DNA of 60,780 nt from Thermoplasmata archaeon. GTDB lineage: Archaea > Thermoplasmatota > Thermoplasmata > Thermoplasmatales > Thermoplasmataceae. The number at the start of each line of letters is the position of its first letter. Within the stretch, counting starts at the first letter, position 1. Positions 3,996 to 10,927 of the stretch are shown here, one piece after another. The stretch lies in the NCBI GenBank assembly GCA_021802055.1, contig JAKAAY010000010.1, positions 1-60,780 of the forward strand, in the 5' to 3' direction. The position numbers and the translations under genes were made by a program. The notes below the pieces were generated by a model, which was given only the letters and a program-made list of their open reading frames with translations, was not told the DNA's origin and did not search any database.

Positions 3996-5516
3996 CTAAG
4001 TAAACCTCTGTCTGAGATCGTTCTTCTGGATCTTTCCAACGGAGTTTTTGGGGAGTTCGTCCAGGAAGAATATCTCCTTGGGGCACTTATACCAGGCAAT
4101 ATTAGCCCTGCAGAATTCAATCACTTCACTACTGGTCAACTGAGGATTCTTCCTGACGACAAATGCCACCACCTCTTCACCGTATGTGTTATCGGGTTTG
4201 CCGACAACAGCCACTTCAGATACACCAGGCATGCCGCTGATAAGGTTCTCAACTTCCTTTGGATATACATTTTCCCCACCGCGTATTACCATGTCCTTTT
4301 TTCTGTCCACAATAAAGAAATAGCCGTCCCTGTCCATGTATCCAAGGTCACCGCTGTGAAGCCACCCATTCTTGAGCGTTGATTCAGTTTCCTGCTTTCT
4401 GTTGAGGTAACCTTTCATTACATTCGGTCCCCTTATAACGATCTCTCCAATTTCGCCGGGAGGCAGATCTTCGTCGTTCTCAGAAAAAATTCTGACGTCC
4501 TGCCCAGGCAGCGGGATGCCGATTGATCCTATCTTCCTCTCCCCGAACCTAGGATTTATTGTTGAAGCCACAGTGCCCTCAGTCATTCCATACCCCTCGA
4601 TAATCTTTATTCCGTAAGCTTTCTCGAAATCCTCAAACCATTTTACGGGCATCGGAGCAGCTCCGCAAATACCAAGCTTGAGGGATGACAGGCTTGTTCT
4701 GTGTTGCACGTTTGCAGCATCAGAAAGTATCTTGTATATTGTAGGGACGGCAGAAAACAGTGTGGGCTTATACTTCCTTACGGACTCAAAAAAATCCCCG
4801 GGTTCAAACTTTTTGAGAATGATAAGTGAGGCACCCTTCAGGATGGAAGCGATGCTGAACATAAGGTTGTTAACGTGAAACAAAGGCAGAATAATTATGA
4901 TCCTGTCGCTGTCCTGCAACCCCACAGCAAGCTGAAGCTGAATCGCTTCCATGTAAATGTTATACGATGTCAGGACTGCCCCCTTTGGTTTTCCAGTAGT
5001 CCCTGACGTGTAAATAAGGAAAAGATCTTCTGGATTGCCAGGCGTCATGGACAGATCAGCCTCTCCGTTGAACACTTTTCTGTAAAGGTCCCCCGAAAGC
5101 CCCCCGTGATCAAAGTCCAATATAACTTTCTCAACTGCTGTGCCACTACTTTCCACCGCCATTTCAATCTTTTCACGATAAGATAATTCGCCAAAGATTA
5201 TTTTGGCACCAGAATCTAAAATCTGGTAGGAAATTTCCTGTTCCTTGAGGTGGACATTGACAGGGGTTACGGTAGCGCCCGCCATCCACGAGCCCATGAC
5301 AATCATGAGAAGTTCCGGCCGGTTAAGAAGATCAATGGCTACAACATCCCCCTTGCCTATCCCGTTATCAGTAAGATACCTGGCAACAGACCGGTACATT
5401 GCTACAATCTGGGCAGGATCATAGGTCCTGCCATCAAAGAAGAACGTCTCTTTTCTGGTTTTGAGGAGGTTTTCCTCCATCATCCGGAGCAGCTGTATGG
5501 ACGACATCGGCCTCAC
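3996..5516 (-). CDS. Acyl-CoA synthetase (AMP-forming), last gene of the acyl-CoA operon
   Basis: The 506-residue ANL-superfamily enzyme would activate a carboxylic acid to acyl-AMP and then acyl-CoA. The P-loop-like A3 motif IYTSGTTGKPKG is near residue 168. It is followed by EGYGMTEGT, the hinge region SGDLGYMDRDGYFFIVDRKKD, IRGGENVYPKEVE, and the A10 lysine in NSVGKIQK near the C-terminus, so all catalytic motifs are intact. The GTG start overlaps the stop of the DUF35 gene by 4 bases (GTGA), implying coupled translation; an ATG three codons later is an alternative. The chain length or ring nature of the substrate is unknown. Confidence 0.92.
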   Translation of the reverse strand: MRPMSSIQLLRMMEENLLKTRKETFFFDGRTYDPAQIVAMYRSVARYLTDNGIGKGDVVAIDLLNRPELLMIVMGSWMAGATVTPVNVHLKEQEISYQILDSGAKIIFGELSYREKIEMAVESSGTAVEKVILDFDHGGLSGDLYRKVFNGEADLSMTPGNPEDLFLIYTSGTTGKPKGAVLTSYNIYMEAIQLQLAVGLQDSDRIIIILPLFHVNNLMFSIASILKGASLIILKKFEPGDFFESVRKYKPTLFSAVPTIYKILSDAANVQHRTSLSSLKLGICGAAPMPVKWFEDFEKAYGIKIIEGYGMTEGTVASTINPRFGERKIGSIGIPLPGQDVRIFSENDEDLPPGEIGEIVIRGPNVMKGYLNRKQETESTLKNGWLHSGDLGYMDRDGYFFIVDRKKDMVIRGGENVYPKEVENLISGMPGVSEVAVVGKPDNTYGEEVVAFVVRKNPQLTSSEVIEFCRANIAWYKCPKEIFFLDELPKNSVGKIQKNDLRQRFT

Positions 5517-6070
5517 TCTACTACTTCATACCAGAAATCGGAAACAACTCCTTTTCGGTCTTCCTTGAACCTTGCAATCACCTTTGCACCGGGATCGACC
5601 TTCTCCCTCCCCCTGAGATCAATCCTCTGCAGCATTCCTGTTTCAGCATCGATGGGCTTAACATATCCCACTGCGTATGGAACCTTATCAAAAAACTCAG
5701 ACGTTGCATACCATGATGTCGTGCTGGACAAAACAGTCCCCACATTGCTCACTTTTTTCCATTGGGTTTCGCCATAACATTCAGAGCATATGGCCCGGGG
5801 AGGAAAATGCACAATTCCGCACTTTTTGCATTTGGAGCCGTAGAGTTCAGCATGATTCATCAGTTCGGAGAAGAACCGCGACTGTTCTCCGTAGCTGTAC
5901 TTATAAAACATCACCATCTTATCGGGGATCTCAAAATATTTCTCATGCTCCAGAACCGATGGATCCAAATTGAGTTTTTCTGAAATGATGCCATCTATGA
6001 CGCTCTCCAACGGTGCTGATTTAAGTTCCTTCCTTGCGGTTTCCCTTGCCTTTTCGGTCGAAGTTTTCAT
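5513..6070 (-). CDS. DUF35 (Zn-ribbon + OB-fold) acyl-CoA partner protein
   Basis: In this 185-residue protein the rubredoxin-like zinc ribbon CKKCG...CSECYG is at about residues 80-100, followed by an OB-fold with GTVLSSTTSW and a C-terminal RFKED segment. Proteins of this family (ChsH2-type) form complexes with thiolase-fold enzymes and hydratases and help channel acyl-CoA substrates. It starts one base after the stop of the thiolase-like gene and overlaps the following ligase by 4 bases, so a physical complex with the thiolase-like protein is the natural prediction. The N-terminal 70 residues are helical and charged. Confidence 0.88.
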   Translation of the reverse strand: MKTSTEKARETARKELKSAPLESVIDGIISEKLNLDPSVLEHEKYFEIPDKMVMFYKYSYGEQSRFFSELMNHAELYGSKCKKCGIVHFPPRAICSECYGETQWKKVSNVGTVLSSTTSWYATSEFFDKVPYAVGYVKPIDAETGMLQRIDLRGREKVDPGAKVIARFKEDRKGVVSDFWYEVVE

Positions 6071-6071
6071 G

Positions 6072-7325
6072 CTAATCTACCCCCAGCACGGAGACCGAGC
6101 AGTATGAGGATCCCGGGCCTCCGATGGAATGTGCCAGGCCAATCCCATTCCTTATCTCCACCTGCCTCTTCCCTGCATTATTTCTCAGTTGATTGACAAC
6201 CTCGCCTATCTGCATCACTCCGGTGGCCCCCACAGCATGTCCTGCACCAAGAAGTCCACCGGACGGGGACACAGGGAGATCACCATCCATCATAGGCACT
6301 CCGTCCCGTATAAATTTGCCACCCTTGCCTCTTTCACAAAATCCCATCGCTTCGTAGGCCTGAATCTCGGTGAAACTGAACGCATCATGAAGTTCTGCGA
6401 GATCTATAACCTTCCGCGGATCCTGGATGCCTGACATTCTGTAGGCCTGTGCTGCAGACTCATAGTGGTTCCTCAGATCAGCTATGTCTCCGTACCTTCC
6501 CATCCTGTCATTCACCGTCCTCGATCCGGTGAAGGACTTGTCGTTGGAAGACCCTATCCCCATGACCCATACAGGGTTATTAACCTCCATTTCTCTGGTT
6601 TTTTCCTCGCTCATGAGAATTAGCGCATATGCCCCCTCTGTGTACAATGAGCAGTCAAGCATCTTGAATGGGTAGGAAATCATCCTGGACTGCAGCACGT
6701 CATCAACGGTGATCTTCATGGGACTCTGGGCGAAGGGGTTGTTCATGGCATTTCCGTGGTTCTTTACGCTTACCATTGCAGCCTCTTCCTCCGTGGTACC
6801 ATACTTGTCCATGTGCGCGGAAGCAAGTATGGCGTATGAGGACGCTGCGGACGTCCCGAGGGGAAACTCCCAGGTCATGTCAGCGCTGTAGGCAATGGAC
6901 TTTATCACCTCAGGTGTAGTTTTGCCCTGCGCCCAGTCATAACAGTCCTGGGCCTTCTCCACGCCAATGACCATTGTAACATCCGAGAGCCCCGAAGCGA
7001 CCTCCGAGTAACCTGACCTGAATGCATATCCCCCGGTTGCGCCACCGGTTGTGATCCTGATTCCGGCCTTCCCGTACATACCCAGATAATCGTGCACATA
7101 CGTGTCTGGCATAATCTGCCTCTCGAACAGGTCGTTGTAAATTCCGTAAACAACAGACTCTATATTTTCAGGAGTTACTCCTGCATCATTCATGGCCTTC
7201 ATGGCGGCTTCCAGAGCAAGTTCATAATAAGTTTTCTGCGGCGTCCTTGCCTCAAATTTTGTCTGTCCTGTCCCAACGACCGCAACTCTTTTCCTTTCAC
7301 TTTTCAACTGCTTGTAGGATTTCAT
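6072..7325 (-). CDS. Thiolase-fold protein of the SCP2/Ltp2 type lacking the nucleophilic cysteine
   Basis: The 417-residue protein has the thiolase layout: VAVVGTGQTKFEART at the N-terminus, GATGGYAFRSGYSEVASG near residue 95, ELHDAFSFTEIQAYEAMGFC and the C-terminal GAGHAVGATG with the conserved histidine. In thiolases of this type the nucleophile lies in a (N)CATG or (A)CASG motif. Here the aligned position is glycine (TGGATGG). Ltp2-type retro-aldolases also lack it and pair with DUF35 proteins, as here. I place the start at 7325, where ATG overlaps the preceding stop as ATGA with GGAGAG upstream; the frame runs open to 7385. A lyase or other carbon-carbon bond reaction is therefore more likely than thiolysis, but this is inference. 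Confidence 0.85.
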   Translation of the reverse strand: MKSYKQLKSERKRVAVVGTGQTKFEARTPQKTYYELALEAAMKAMNDAGVTPENIESVVYGIYNDLFERQIMPDTYVHDYLGMYGKAGIRITTGGATGGYAFRSGYSEVASGLSDVTMVIGVEKAQDCYDWAQGKTTPEVIKSIAYSADMTWEFPLGTSAASSYAILASAHMDKYGTTEEEAAMVSVKNHGNAMNNPFAQSPMKITVDDVLQSRMISYPFKMLDCSLYTEGAYALILMSEEKTREMEVNNPVWVMGIGSSNDKSFTGSRTVNDRMGRYGDIADLRNHYESAAQAYRMSGIQDPRKVIDLAELHDAFSFTEIQAYEAMGFCERGKGGKFIRDGVPMMDGDLPVSPSGGLLGAGHAVGATGVMQIGEVVNQLRNNAGKRQVEIRNGIGLAHSIGGPGSSYCSVSVLGVD

Positions 7326-7753
7326 TCTTTCTCTCCATTTTTTTTCTTTCTTTCCAGATGCAATGTGACAAACTCCATCACACATTCCTTCTTCTGGTTG
7401 AGCGTTCTCGCAGAAATTTTAACAACAACGGATCCGGATCTTGATTCTTTCCTTTCTGCCGAATATGAGACCCTCAAGGTGTCACCTATTTTGACAGGTC
7501 TGAGGAAACTGACACTTTCTATGGACTTAAGGGCCGTGAAGGTATCTGTATCGATTGCGCCAGACTGGATCACAAGGCCCAGGGAAACGGACAGGGTGAG
7601 GTAACCATGGGCTACCCGTTGACCGAAGATGCTCTTGCTCGCCATTTCGATATCCGTATGAAGGTAGGTCCAGTCGCCTGTGAAATAGGAGAACATTACA
7701 AGATCCGTTTCGGTTATTGTCCTGCCACTGGTGGTCTTCTCCTCCGTGATCAC
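7322..7753 (-). CDS. MaoC-like (R)-specific enoyl-CoA hydratase
   Basis: The 143-residue hot-dog-fold protein carries the hydratase-2 motif: FTGDWTYLHTDIEMA (Asp and His of the catalytic dyad) followed by FGQRVAHGYLTLSVSLG. It would add water across a trans-2-enoyl-CoA, or run the reverse reaction. It starts with GTG overlapping the stop of the upstream ligase by 4 bases and ends in an ATGA overlap with the thiolase-like gene, so it is the second gene of the operon. Length is normal for a single-domain MaoC protein. Confidence 0.88.
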   Translation of the reverse strand: MITEEKTTSGRTITETDLVMFSYFTGDWTYLHTDIEMASKSIFGQRVAHGYLTLSVSLGLVIQSGAIDTDTFTALKSIESVSFLRPVKIGDTLRVSYSAERKESRSGSVVVKISARTLNQKKECVMEFVTLHLERKKKNGEKE

Positions 7754-9225
7754 CCTTTCACCCTGTCGTTCAGATAAAGATCCTTGTAATGTTCTCTCAA
7801 TTCTTTCTTGAGTATCTTCCCGCTGGCATTGTGCGGAAGTGAAGGGAGGATCATAATTTTCTTGGGTACCTTGTAGTTTGCCATTCTTGGTTTCAGATAC
7901 TCCATAATTTCATCCGCGTCAACCTTCTGATCTTTTTTTGCAGTGACAAATGCGGTGACCGCTTCCATCCAGTAGGGGTGTTTTATGCCAACCACCGCGG
8001 CTTCCCCGATGGATCTGTGTGTAAGAAGTTCTCTTTCGACCTCTACTGAAGGGACATTTTCTCCCCCCGTCCGAATTATATCTTTCTTCCTGTCAACGAA
8101 GTAGAGGAATCCTTCCTTGTCCATTACCGCAAGATCACCCGATCTGACCCATCCGCCATTAAAAGCGGCCCTTGTCTTTTCTTCGTCGTTGAAATAACCC
8201 TTCGCGACTGTTGGTCCTTTCATCAATATCTCTCCTACCTCCCCCGCCTTCGCTTCAGAACCGTCTTCCTTCACAAGTTTAAGGGAAATATTGATGTGAG
8301 GCCGCCCTATCGACTCCTTTCTGGCTTCAAACTGATTGGGCAGCAGTGTTGTACCCATAGGGGTAGTCTCTGTCATCCCATAGTAATTTCGCCACTGCAC
8401 GTCCGGGAAAATTTTTGAGACCGTGTTAAACTGCGACTCACTTATAAAAGCACCGAAACTGATGCACTTTTTGACAGACATAAACGGTTCCTTGACAAAC
8501 TGAGAGAGCCCAATGAATAACGTGGGAGGAAATATCAGGTAAGTAACATGGTGACTCTTTATTAGAGAAACTATTTCAGCTGGATTTGGAGCAGCCTCGA
8601 GAACAACGGATGCCCCGACGTTCATGAAACCCAGGCATGTATATAGGCCAGCCACGTGATAGACAGGAATGCTCAGCAAAAACACATCTTCGTGACGCCA
8701 GTCAAGGTCATGTATGGAACTAATCAAAGCAGAATACCAGTTCAGGTGTGTGTTCATAACGCCCTTTGGGGCAGATTCCGTCCCTGACGTGTAGAGGAGA
8801 GTGGAAACATCATCAGGATCGGTTTGATGTATAAACTCATCCGCATCAGTAAGCTTTACCTGGTCCAGCTCCACTATTCTGGTTCCAAAATCACCGGCCA
8901 ACGGAGTATCAGTAAACAGGACAACGGGCCTGGAATCCCTTACGAGCGCCTTGATTTCTTCTGGCTTGAGGTTGAAGTTATAAGGAGAGTAGATGGCGCC
9001 TATGCGATTTGCAGCCATCCATAATTCAAGCATCTCCGGCCTATTTTTTGAAAAGACCGATACGACTTCTCCAGCTTTAATGCCGCTTTTTCTGAGATAT
9101 GAGACCCACTTAAGCACCATTTCCCTGAAGGTTTCAAATGTAAACGTTCTGTCATTGAAAAAAAGAAAATTTTTGCGGGGCCACTTCTCTGAAGAACGGT
9201 CGAGGACTTCTGAAACGTTTAACAT
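7750..9225 (-). CDS. Acyl-CoA synthetase (AMP-forming), first gene of the acyl-CoA operon
   Basis: This 491-residue ANL enzyme has an A3 motif LLYTSGTESAPKG, where SAP replaces the usual TGK residues of TSGTTGKPKG, a change common in fatty-acid/aryl ligases. Then come WRNYYGMTETTPMG, RSGDLAVMDKEGFLYFVDRKKD, IRTGGENVPSVEVE and the catalytic lysine in NASGKILKKELR. A GGAG ribosome-binding site lies about 10 bases before the ATG, so this transcript probably has a leader, unlike many genes here. It heads a five-gene operon running to 3996 with overlaps or 1-base gaps throughout. Confidence 0.92.
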   Translation of the reverse strand: MLNVSEVLDRSSEKWPRKNFLFFNDRTFTFETFREMVLKWVSYLRKSGIKAGEVVSVFSKNRPEMLELWMAANRIGAIYSPYNFNLKPEEIKALVRDSRPVVLFTDTPLAGDFGTRIVELDQVKLTDADEFIHQTDPDDVSTLLYTSGTESAPKGVMNTHLNWYSALISSIHDLDWRHEDVFLLSIPVYHVAGLYTCLGFMNVGASVVLEAAPNPAEIVSLIKSHHVTYLIFPPTLFIGLSQFVKEPFMSVKKCISFGAFISESQFNTVSKIFPDVQWRNYYGMTETTPMGTTLLPNQFEARKESIGRPHINISLKLVKEDGSEAKAGEVGEILMKGPTVAKGYFNDEEKTRAAFNGGWVRSGDLAVMDKEGFLYFVDRKKDIIRTGGENVPSVEVERELLTHRSIGEAAVVGIKHPYWMEAVTAFVTAKKDQKVDADEIMEYLKPRMANYKVPKKIMILPSLPHNASGKILKKELREHYKDLYLNDRVKG

Positions 9226-9370: not shown

Positions 9371-10927
9371 ATGGTTAATCTGGCATCCTACCTGGACAGG
9401 TCGGTTAGGGAATATTCTAAGAATACCGTCATAGAAGAATCTGGCAGGCAGGTTTCCTATGACGACTACGGAAGAATGGCTGACAGTCTGGCGTCGTACC
9501 TTTCCGGCATCGGAATAGGGAGAGATGATAGACTGGGAATACTGTTGCCCATGTCTGTGGATTATCTGGTATCGTTCTATGCACTGTGGAAGGTTGGTGC
9601 AGTCGCGGTACCAATTAACAACAGATTTTCCCTGGAAGATATCCAGTTTGTGATAAGCGATGCCGGGCTGAAGGGTCTCTTGCTCTCCTCACAGGAAAGA
9701 GATCGGCTTGAGCCAATACTCAGGCTCAACCCTTCGCTGCGGGTTATTGTGCAGGGGCAGGAAGGAGCCAGTAACAGTTTCAGCCATATCTATGCTTCAG
9801 AACATGCCGGGGATTGGCGTGCTGAAACCTGGGCACTTGACGATGACGAAGCAATGGTGATGTACACAAGCGGAACGACAGGAAAACCGAAAGGGGTCAG
9901 ACAGACCCATAGAAATAATTCATCATCAATCCACATGGTCATGGATGCATGGAAACTGAGTTCTTCAGACGTTCTTCTGAATAATGTCCCTCTATTCCAT
10001 GTAGGCGGTCTCCAGTGCGGAACCTTTCCTGCATTATTTTCTGGGGGTAAAATAATTCTTCTTCCGAAGTGGAATGCCAGGGAATGGATAGATCTGTCCA
10101 TTAATAGAAAGGCCACATGGTCAGGGCTGGTTTCCACCATGGTTGTGGATACCGTCAACAACATCAAATCCATGGCCGACCTGAGGAGGGATAAATTCAG
10201 TTATCGATTCATATTTTTTGGGGGTTCGCCAACACCTGATCCCGTAATTTCATACTTCGATGAATTTTTTAAAGTCCCTCTAAGGGAAATTTATGGTCTC
10301 ACAGAAGCCTCAGGACTGGTTATTTCTTACAAGGAGGGCCAGAAATGGAAACATGGGTCCATGGGCTATATCATGAAGCAGGCTGCAGAGTTCAGGGTGG
10401 TGAAACCTGAAAGTCTCGGGAATAAAGGAAAACTGAAGGATAGTGAGGAAGGAGTCCTTCTTCTCAGGGGAGACACCATCACCGAAGGCTACCTCAACAG
10501 GCCTGATTTGAACGGGGAGCGCTTTGTTGAGGGGTGGTTTAACACCAAGGACATAGTAAGGGTGCATCGTGACGGTTTAATGTACTATCTGGGGAGGATC
10601 GATGAAATGATCATTTCGGGCGGGGAAAATATCTATCCACAGGAAGTTGAGAGTCTGATATCCTCGCATCCTGAAGTGAAGGAAGTAGCAGTGATAGGGG
10701 TCCCGCATGAGAGATGGATCGAAGCGGTAACTGCAATCGTAGTGCCGAAGAAAGATGGACTGAAACCGGAGGACGTAATACAATTCTGTGAGAGAAACAC
10801 GTCTCTGGCATCATACAAACGGCCAAAGAAGGTCTTTATCTCAAACGAACTGCCTAAAACGGGAAGTGGAAAGATAAACAAGGCCGCCCTTAAGGAAATT
10901 TACGGAAAGAAGCAGGATGGTGAATAG
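9371..10927 (+). CDS. Acyl-CoA synthetase (AMP-forming), divergent from the acyl-CoA operon
   Basis: This is the third ANL ligase of the region, at 518 residues. Motifs seen are VMYTSGTTGKPKGVRQTH, REIYGLTEASG, NTKDIVRVHRDGLMYYLGRIDEMI, ISGGENIYPQEVE and TGSGKINKAALK. In the hinge, the SGDL found in both other ligases reads NTKDI. A TATA-like AATATTTAATAT lies about 35 bases upstream of the ATG, suggesting a leader of about 10 bases. It shares the 145-base divergent promoter region with the operon at 9225, so the two units may be co-regulated. Confidence 0.92.
   Translation: MVNLASYLDRSVREYSKNTVIEESGRQVSYDDYGRMADSLASYLSGIGIGRDDRLGILLPMSVDYLVSFYALWKVGAVAVPINNRFSLEDIQFVISDAGLKGLLLSSQERDRLEPILRLNPSLRVIVQGQEGASNSFSHIYASEHAGDWRAETWALDDDEAMVMYTSGTTGKPKGVRQTHRNNSSSIHMVMDAWKLSSSDVLLNNVPLFHVGGLQCGTFPALFSGGKIILLPKWNAREWIDLSINRKATWSGLVSTMVVDTVNNIKSMADLRRDKFSYRFIFFGGSPTPDPVISYFDEFFKVPLREIYGLTEASGLVISYKEGQKWKHGSMGYIMKQAAEFRVVKPESLGNKGKLKDSEEGVLLLRGDTITEGYLNRPDLNGERFVEGWFNTKDIVRVHRDGLMYYLGRIDEMIISGGENIYPQEVESLISSHPEVKEVAVIGVPHERWIEAVTAIVVPKKDGLKPEDVIQFCERNTSLASYKRPKKVFISNELPKTGSGKINKAALKEIYGKKQDGE

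Follow-up and report, generated by a model that had tools for sequence, protein, structure and literature searches.

A thiolase-like protein without both catalytic cysteines and its DUF35 partner in a Thermoplasmata archaeon: a tentative acyl-CoA aldolase

The analyzed DNA (hereafter the window) is 60,780 nucleotides long and corresponds to one whole contig, JAKAAY010000010.1 (C31), of the Thermoplasmata archaeon assembly GCA_021802055.1, which totals 1.48 Mb. It carries a minus-strand operon for a thiolase-like protein and a DUF35 protein, together with a MaoC-type hydratase and ligases of acyl-coenzyme A (acyl-CoA). The first-pass annotation of this DNA had interpreted the pair as a possible archaeal acyl-CoA aldolase. 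The genes of the operon and the divergent gene beside it are as follows (ORF, open reading frame).

7750..9225, minus strand: ACS2, AMP-forming acyl-CoA ligase, first gene of the operon (PF00501, E 3.9e-71; 4-base overlap with the MaoC gene)
7322..7753, minus strand: MaoC-type enoyl-CoA hydratase, 143 amino acids, with a GDWTYLH motif (PF01575, E 2.7e-25)
6072..7325, minus strand: thiolase-like protein (family A) without the nucleophilic Cys, 417 amino acids from the ATG at 7325 (ORF list)
5513..6070, minus strand: DUF35 partner (zf-ChsH2 and OB fold), 185 amino acids (Pfam, models)
3996..5516, minus strand: ACS1, AMP-forming acyl-CoA ligase, last gene of the operon (PF00501, E 5.3e-85; 4-base overlap with the DUF35 gene)
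9371..10927, plus strand: ACS3, third AMP-forming acyl-CoA ligase, divergent (PF00501, E 3.2e-69)

The genes of the operon, in the order ACS2, MaoC, thiolase-like, DUF35 and ACS1, are joined by 4-base overlaps or a 1-base gap. The gap, at 6071, separates the thiolase-like gene from the DUF35 gene downstream. These ORFs, their coordinates and the gap agree with the first-pass annotation. A longer ATG frame of the thiolase-like ORF begins at 7385. The MaoC gene and the three ligase genes that it listed are all present, but the third ligase gene is divergent, not co-directional. Its position suggests that ACS3 may be a member of the pathway. An ACS3-like ligase gene is divergent also beside the operons of L060 and L036 (L numbers designate the stretches compared).

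The thiolase-like protein matches Thiolase_N and Thiolase_C_1 in Pfam. It was aligned with solved relatives, including 6ESQ (the acetoacetyl-CoA thiolase of M. thermolithotrophicus), TcLtp2, CtSal, BbsB and 7YVY. The alignment columns are considered to be right, because Tyr294 and Tyr344 of TcLtp2 and Cys85 of 6ESQ were recovered exactly and the CtSal residues fell at a constant offset of 24. The close homologues, family A, comprise 36 rows: 13 belong to Thermoplasmatales, including the window, and the other 23 to the phylum that contains a Helarchaeota genome. Four codons are referred to below.

7041..7043, minus strand: Gly95, at the nucleophilic-Cys position of thiolases (alignment; Gly in 36/36 family A rows)
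6387..6389, minus strand: His313, in the HDAF motif (alignment; 36/36 family A rows)
6237..6239, minus strand: His363, in the GHA motif (alignment; 36/36 family A rows)
6942..6944, minus strand: Cys128, a family-A-specific Cys in the loop 127-159 (35/36 family A rows; Asn in L069)

Cys85 of 6ESQ falls on Gly95, so the Gly of GGATGG does occupy the catalytic Cys position, as had been proposed from the sequence alone. The same column contains Gly in TcLtp2 and Gly89 in CtSal. The His region GAGHAVGATG, described earlier as kept, is present, and its His363 occupies the column of the GHP His, where TcLtp2 has Tyr344 and CtSal has Gln352. The first residue of the XDXX motif is His in thiolases, His313 in the window protein, Tyr294 in TcLtp2 and Tyr302 in CtSal. 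The third residue is Cys in SCP2 thiolases and 6ESQ, Ala315 in the window protein, His296 in TcLtp2 and Cys304 in CtSal. The second thiolase Cys is thus lost too, with HDAF replacing HDCF, which the first-pass annotation had missed. Ala is also found at this position in the Cys-bearing BbsB and 7YVY, and HDAF alone therefore does not exclude a thiolase. By its sequence, the window protein is a thiolase minus both Cys residues, with both His residues retained and no aldolase Tyr. The comparison with Ltp2 and SCP2 thiolases that had been suggested earlier thus gives a divided answer: the Gly is shared with TcLtp2, but the Tyr residues of the aldolase site are replaced by His.

Gly95, His313 and His363 are kept in all family A rows down to ~50% identity, indicating that the pocket is under selection. 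An assembly error is excluded, because the same residues occur at 12 other Thermoplasmatales loci and in 23 rows from another phylum. With a limit of E 1e-90, matches occur in 20 of the 148 genomes from Helarchaeota's phylum. The phylum of the window has such matches in 6 of 292 genomes; by identity, four of these belong to family A and two to family B. Among 61 genomes, the window genome and those nearest to it, seven have family A. The nearest homologue outside Thermoplasmatales is 65% identical to the window protein, far above the 39% of the genome's own paralogue on contig C19. These sequence identities suggest that family A moved between Thermoplasmatales and Helarchaeota's phylum.

The C19 paralogue represents family B, in which GGATGG is present in 28/28 rows, mostly together with HDAY. 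Four members (L016, L020, L028 and L029) have YDAY or YDSY, that is, Tyr at the His313 position. As Sal has YDCY, His and Tyr appear to exchange at that position. Such an exchange is easier to reconcile with a general base than with an oxyanion His that is fixed. In the window genome, the family B pair (L031:9356-12140, contig C19) overlaps an FAA-hydrolase gene (296 amino acids), whose product is a possible partner hydrolase. At L014:1495-3240, the pair is naturally fused: a single 581-amino-acid ORF gives matches to the thiolase-like protein as well as to the DUF35 protein. Tandem pairs of thiolase-like genes that lack the Cys, accompanied by one or two DUF35 genes, were observed at L073:370-3659, L128:1880-5336, L136:1-2925, L138:12275-15696 and L081:4306-7161, and their hosts include Jordarchaeum and a haloarchaeon. 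The proteins of these tandem pairs mostly form their own clade in trees, and one member of the pair often has a shortened nucleophile loop. From their sequences, the tandem pairs look like heterodimeric enzymes.

The gene order around family A is well conserved. The DUF35 gene lies directly downstream of the thiolase-like gene in 13/13 Thermoplasmatales loci, and MaoC, thiolase-like, DUF35 and ACS1 genes are contiguous in 11 of the 13. The exceptions are L061, which is cut at a contig end, and L068, which is rearranged; L069 has no ACS2 upstream. The Asp-x4-His motif of MaoC, which is catalytic in (R)-specific hydratases, is retained in 11/11 examined. In many loci from Helarchaeota's phylum, the thiolase-DUF35 pair is followed by an ORF of 120-140 residues. 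Three of four tested (L071, L128 and L129) belong to the SCP2 sterol-transfer family by Pfam, with weak scores above the cut-off, while the ORF in L072 has no Pfam SCP2 match. Acyl-CoA dehydrogenase genes are found near two related operons: L071 has a double one alongside, and L127 has a single one upstream.

The DUF35 protein matches zf-ChsH2 in Pfam, and its OB_ChsH2_C score, 26.4 bits, is marginally below the cut-off of 27.1. The zinc-ribbon pattern C-x2-C-x10-C-x2-C is present in 13/13 aligned DUF35 proteins and corresponds here to the following feature.

5777..5830, minus strand: zinc-ribbon residues Cys81, Cys84, Cys95 and Cys98 of the DUF35 protein (alignment)

A helical extension of 60-70 residues precedes these domains at the N-terminus. 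The structure model of the DUF35 protein matches Trf (Z 13.3), 6ok1_D, which is bound to Ltp2 (Z 12.4), and 9myr_B, which is bound to Sal (Z 12.4), and its first 60 residues are barely covered. The AlphaFold2 (AF2) model of the thiolase-like protein has a predicted local distance difference test score (pLDDT) of 79 and a predicted template modelling score of 0.85. Two loops are unresolved, 127-159 (pLDDT <50) and 359-364, the latter containing His363. In the fold comparison (VIA), Ltp2 (Z 46.7, root-mean-square deviation (rmsd) 2.4, 357 aligned residues) and Sal (Z 46.3, rmsd 2.5, 368 aligned) rank behind 6ESQ (Z 53.7, rmsd 2.2, 375 aligned). This ranking indicates that the scaffold is thiolase-like and that only the pocket partly resembles the aldolases.

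Two solved systems, TcLtp2-ChsH2 (6OK1) and CtSal-Shy (9MYR), share with the window pair the thiolase fold, the Gly at the nucleophile position and the DUF35 partner. A MaoC hydratase gene lies near those systems, as it does in the window operon. The Sal structure has Gly at the nucleophile position and needs Tyr302 and Cys304, while the catalytic residues of Ltp2 are Tyr294 and Tyr344 (PMC12329534). In both aldolases the XDXX Tyr serves as base; the proton donor is Tyr344 in Ltp2 and Cys304 in Sal. DUF35 is indispensable to the aldolase activity of Ltp2 (PMC12502768). The first-pass annotation regarded the window pair as exactly the Ltp2-ChsH2 pairing. This holds for the Gly and the DUF35 partner, but not for the catalytic Tyr residues or Cys304 of Sal, which are replaced. 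None of the catalytic residues of either aldolase is present in the window protein, and it is therefore not an Ltp2 or a Sal; such membership was ruled out by the catalytic residues and the tree. Judged from the sequences, it is of similar design with a different catalytic pair.

Two Cys-type or Ser-type thiolases are also comparable. 6ESQ is the nearest solved protein in sequence (E 1.5e-57) as well as fold, and like the window protein it has a DUF35 partner and both active-site His residues. It differs in having Cys85 and HDCF and in working within a complex with 3-hydroxy-3-methylglutaryl-CoA (HMG-CoA) synthase, whereas the window protein has Gly and HDAF and is encoded in a ligase/MaoC operon. 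The haloarchaeal-type BktB/PhaA has Ser instead of Cys and is an active thiolase with a Ser-His-His site (review PMC7137286). It resembles the window pair as a thiolase with an OB-fold subunit, no Cys and two His residues; unlike its Ser, Gly95 cannot act as a nucleophile. A Ser-type thiolase was rejected on this residue. Ser was seen at the nucleophile position in L097, L180 and L181. NCBIfam PRK06365.1 (NF004982, "thiolase domain-containing protein"), which has no assigned function, is among the two best matches, with 356.3 bits, far below its cut-off of 695. Among the papers covered, mostly by title and abstract, none describes the archaeal Cys-less clade.

For the phylogenetic analysis, near-identical rows were thinned from 110 to 83 before the first tree and further before the 59-, 71- and 37-row sets. 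L055 and L122, which are partial, and L058, which is the window itself, were removed from the trees. The 78-, 59- and 71-row trees exclude five rows that were long or aberrant, namely the two from L105, that of L101 and the two tandem ones of L128. The 59-row tree was rooted with the genome's three classical thiolases as outgroup, and the 71-row set was enlarged by Ltp2-like proteins, drawn from plasmid records, and by 4U4E. In the unrooted trees, the archaeal Cys-less rows were apart from the Cys-bearing rows, and the Ltp2/Sal rows formed their own clade. The window protein falls outside the latter, in a separate archaeal clade. In the rooted trees the two clades join, with support of 82 (59 rows) and 93 (71 rows) in the Shimodaira-Hasegawa-like approximate likelihood ratio test (SH-aLRT). 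They join at 98/93 (bootstrap/SH-aLRT) in a careful 37-row tree, where no long branches were flagged. Thus, the archaeal Cys-less clade is probably sister to the Ltp2/Sal clade. On the 78-row tree, the presence of Cys or Ser versus neither requires one change, and the joint loss of both Cys residues gives one independent pair. Independent Cys losses in archaea and bacteria, an idea from the unrooted trees, were dropped on account of this single change and the rooted trees. These sequences favor, but do not prove, that the nucleophile was lost once, in an event common to the archaeal clade and the known aldolases. Among the plasmid records, a Rhodococcus gene annotated as an OB-fold protein (L158:2003-3658) is in one frame with an Ltp2-like thiolase domain. 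A Vibrio alfacsensis plasmid (L162:1-6143) carries a run of OB-fold, acyl-CoA dehydrogenase, MaoC and Ltp2-like genes that resembles bacterial steroid side-chain operons.

Taken together, the analysis tentatively points, at somewhat less than an even chance, to the thiolase-like and DUF35 proteins being a DUF35-dependent acyl-CoA aldolase with a His/His pair, acting on 3-hydroxyacyl-CoA made by MaoC. Without the nucleophile there is no acyl-enzyme by the usual route; ordinary thiolysis is thus unlikely, and enolate chemistry on a bound acyl-CoA remains. MaoC makes or uses 3-hydroxyacyl-CoA and the known Cys-less, DUF35-bound members carry out its retro-aldol cleavage, which leads to the aldolase interpretation. 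No 3-hydroxyacyl-CoA dehydrogenase is encoded on the contig, which was counted in its favor. The two proteins would act together as a single complex, which would cleave or build the Calpha-Cbeta bond of 3-hydroxyacyl-CoA by aldol chemistry, with no acyl-enzyme formed. In the pathway, a ligase would first make the acyl-CoA, an acyl-CoA dehydrogenase encoded elsewhere in the genome would desaturate it, and MaoC would then hydrate it. The complex would cleave the product to an aldehyde or ketone and acetyl- or propionyl-CoA. Gly95 would leave room for the beta-hydroxyl at the Cys site, His313 could act as the base on this hydroxyl in place of the aldolase Tyr, His363 (Tyr344 in Ltp2) could protonate the enolate, and DUF35 would complete the acyl pocket. 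The residues and their conservation, the conserved operon and the tree are observations, whereas the reaction, its direction, its substrate and the roles of both His residues are inferred.

Several observations weigh against this aldolase. The conserved MaoC motif and the sister clade speak for the interpretation given in the first-pass annotation, but the closest relative in both fold and sequence, 6ESQ, is a Cys thiolase. His313 stands for Tyr294/Tyr302, His363 for Tyr344/Gln352 and Ala315 for Cys304, and Tyr is found at the His313 position in 13/13 sampled rows of the aldolase clade. The Cys304His variant of Sal has no activity (PMC12329534), indicating that active-site swaps of such a kind are not freely tolerated. 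When four active-site stretches were dropped, the grouping of the archaeal Cys-less and Ltp2/Sal clades fell to 86/89. The alternative, with Cys-bearing thiolases and aldolases together, is 2.21 log units worse and is not rejected (p = 0.326 in the approximately unbiased test). The first-pass annotation was right that the operon has no acyl-CoA dehydrogenase; none is encoded on the entire contig either, and the six matches in the genome are all elsewhere. The genome also encodes hydroxyacyl-CoA dehydrogenases, none of them on C31, and three thiolases outside DUF35 pairs, so a normal route exists. In the literature covered, no activity was met for any close relative.

Among other explanations, a Claisen-side enzyme without an acyl-enzyme is unlikely. 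The two His residues, both retained from thiolases throughout family A, would then decarboxylate malonyl- or beta-keto-acyl-CoA or stabilize an enolate for the formation of another C-C bond. TbSLP, which has a related pocket, slowly decarboxylates malonyl-CoA, but Sal does not (PMC12329534). Among the genes of the operon none for a carboxylase was observed, and the adjoining MaoC points to 3-hydroxyacyl- or enoyl-CoA.

It is about equally improbable that the protein is a non-catalytic CoA-binding scaffold or a regulatory subunit. The loss of both catalytic Cys residues is consistent with such a role, and MsTLP1, which is without Cys, has no thiolase activity (PMC3406046). Decayed thiolases do exist in the lineage, in a group that includes the HMG-CoA-synthase-linked thiolase of the window genome, but in 8/8 decayed rows the GHP His is gone, while both His residues are kept in 36/36 family A rows. 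The operon also encodes no Cys-bearing thiolase partner. In that group, the thiolase adjacent to the HMG-CoA synthase-like gene at G000:C18 (L032:9170-10372, L056) has Ser in place of the nucleophilic Cys, and its GHP His is replaced by Asn. Both residues are lost in 7 of 16 comparison stretches from related genomes (L168, L169, L172, L174, L175, L176 and L183), with Ser or Thr at the first and Asn, Asp, Tyr or Phe at the second; L170 and L171, among others of the 16, retain Cys and His. The linkage of thiolase and HMG-CoA synthase was seen in the window genome only. This Cys-less thiolase may be a structural remnant in a mevalonate complex.

Slightly less probable again is a thiolase whose nucleophile or acid has moved to Cys128, in the loop 127-159, the single candidate for such a relocated Cys. 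Cys128 is absent from family B and from six aligned solved relatives, and in PhlC the active site is lined by Tyr124, a residue similarly far from the nucleophile (PMC6392133). The one family A row without Cys128, L069, carries Asn, and its MaoC-thiolase-DUF35-ACS1 operon is otherwise unbroken. With pLDDT below 50 in the modeled loop, nothing places Cys128 near the thioester. Least probable of all is aldol chemistry in synthesis, in which an acyl-CoA and an aldehyde or ketone would give 3-hydroxyacyl-CoA for dehydration by MaoC: MaoC enzymes are reversible and the operon has no dehydrogenase, but the two to three acyl-CoA ligases in or beside it and the acyl-CoA dehydrogenases at some related operons fit breakdown better.

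A wider form of the aldolase proposal is doubtful as a whole, ranking just below the Claisen-side and scaffold explanations. In this form, an archaeal Cys-less thiolase-like/DUF35 clade, sister to the bacterial steroid side-chain aldolases and with a His/His dyad, would use retro-aldol cleavage to get round beta-oxidation for substrates whose beta carbon cannot be converted to a ketone. Example substrates, purely conjectural, could be 3-hydroxy-3-methylacyl-CoAs from the isoprenoid chains of archaeal lipids, which would give a ketone and acetyl-CoA. Among the papers listed, none is by its title and abstract about isoprenoid breakdown by these archaea.

In the parts of the literature covered, thiolase-fold acyl-CoA aldolases are limited to bacterial steroid degraders, plus a proposal for a trypanosome protein, and carbon-chain cutting by such chemistry is not yet shown in archaea. 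If the proposal is true, archaea would gain a bypass of blocked beta-oxidation. An archaeal clade with the Cys-to-Gly replacement, DUF35, a hydratase gene and another catalytic pair would then show how thiolases become aldolases. Many archaeal proteins of a similar type carry thiolase labels only, and they may be mis-named.

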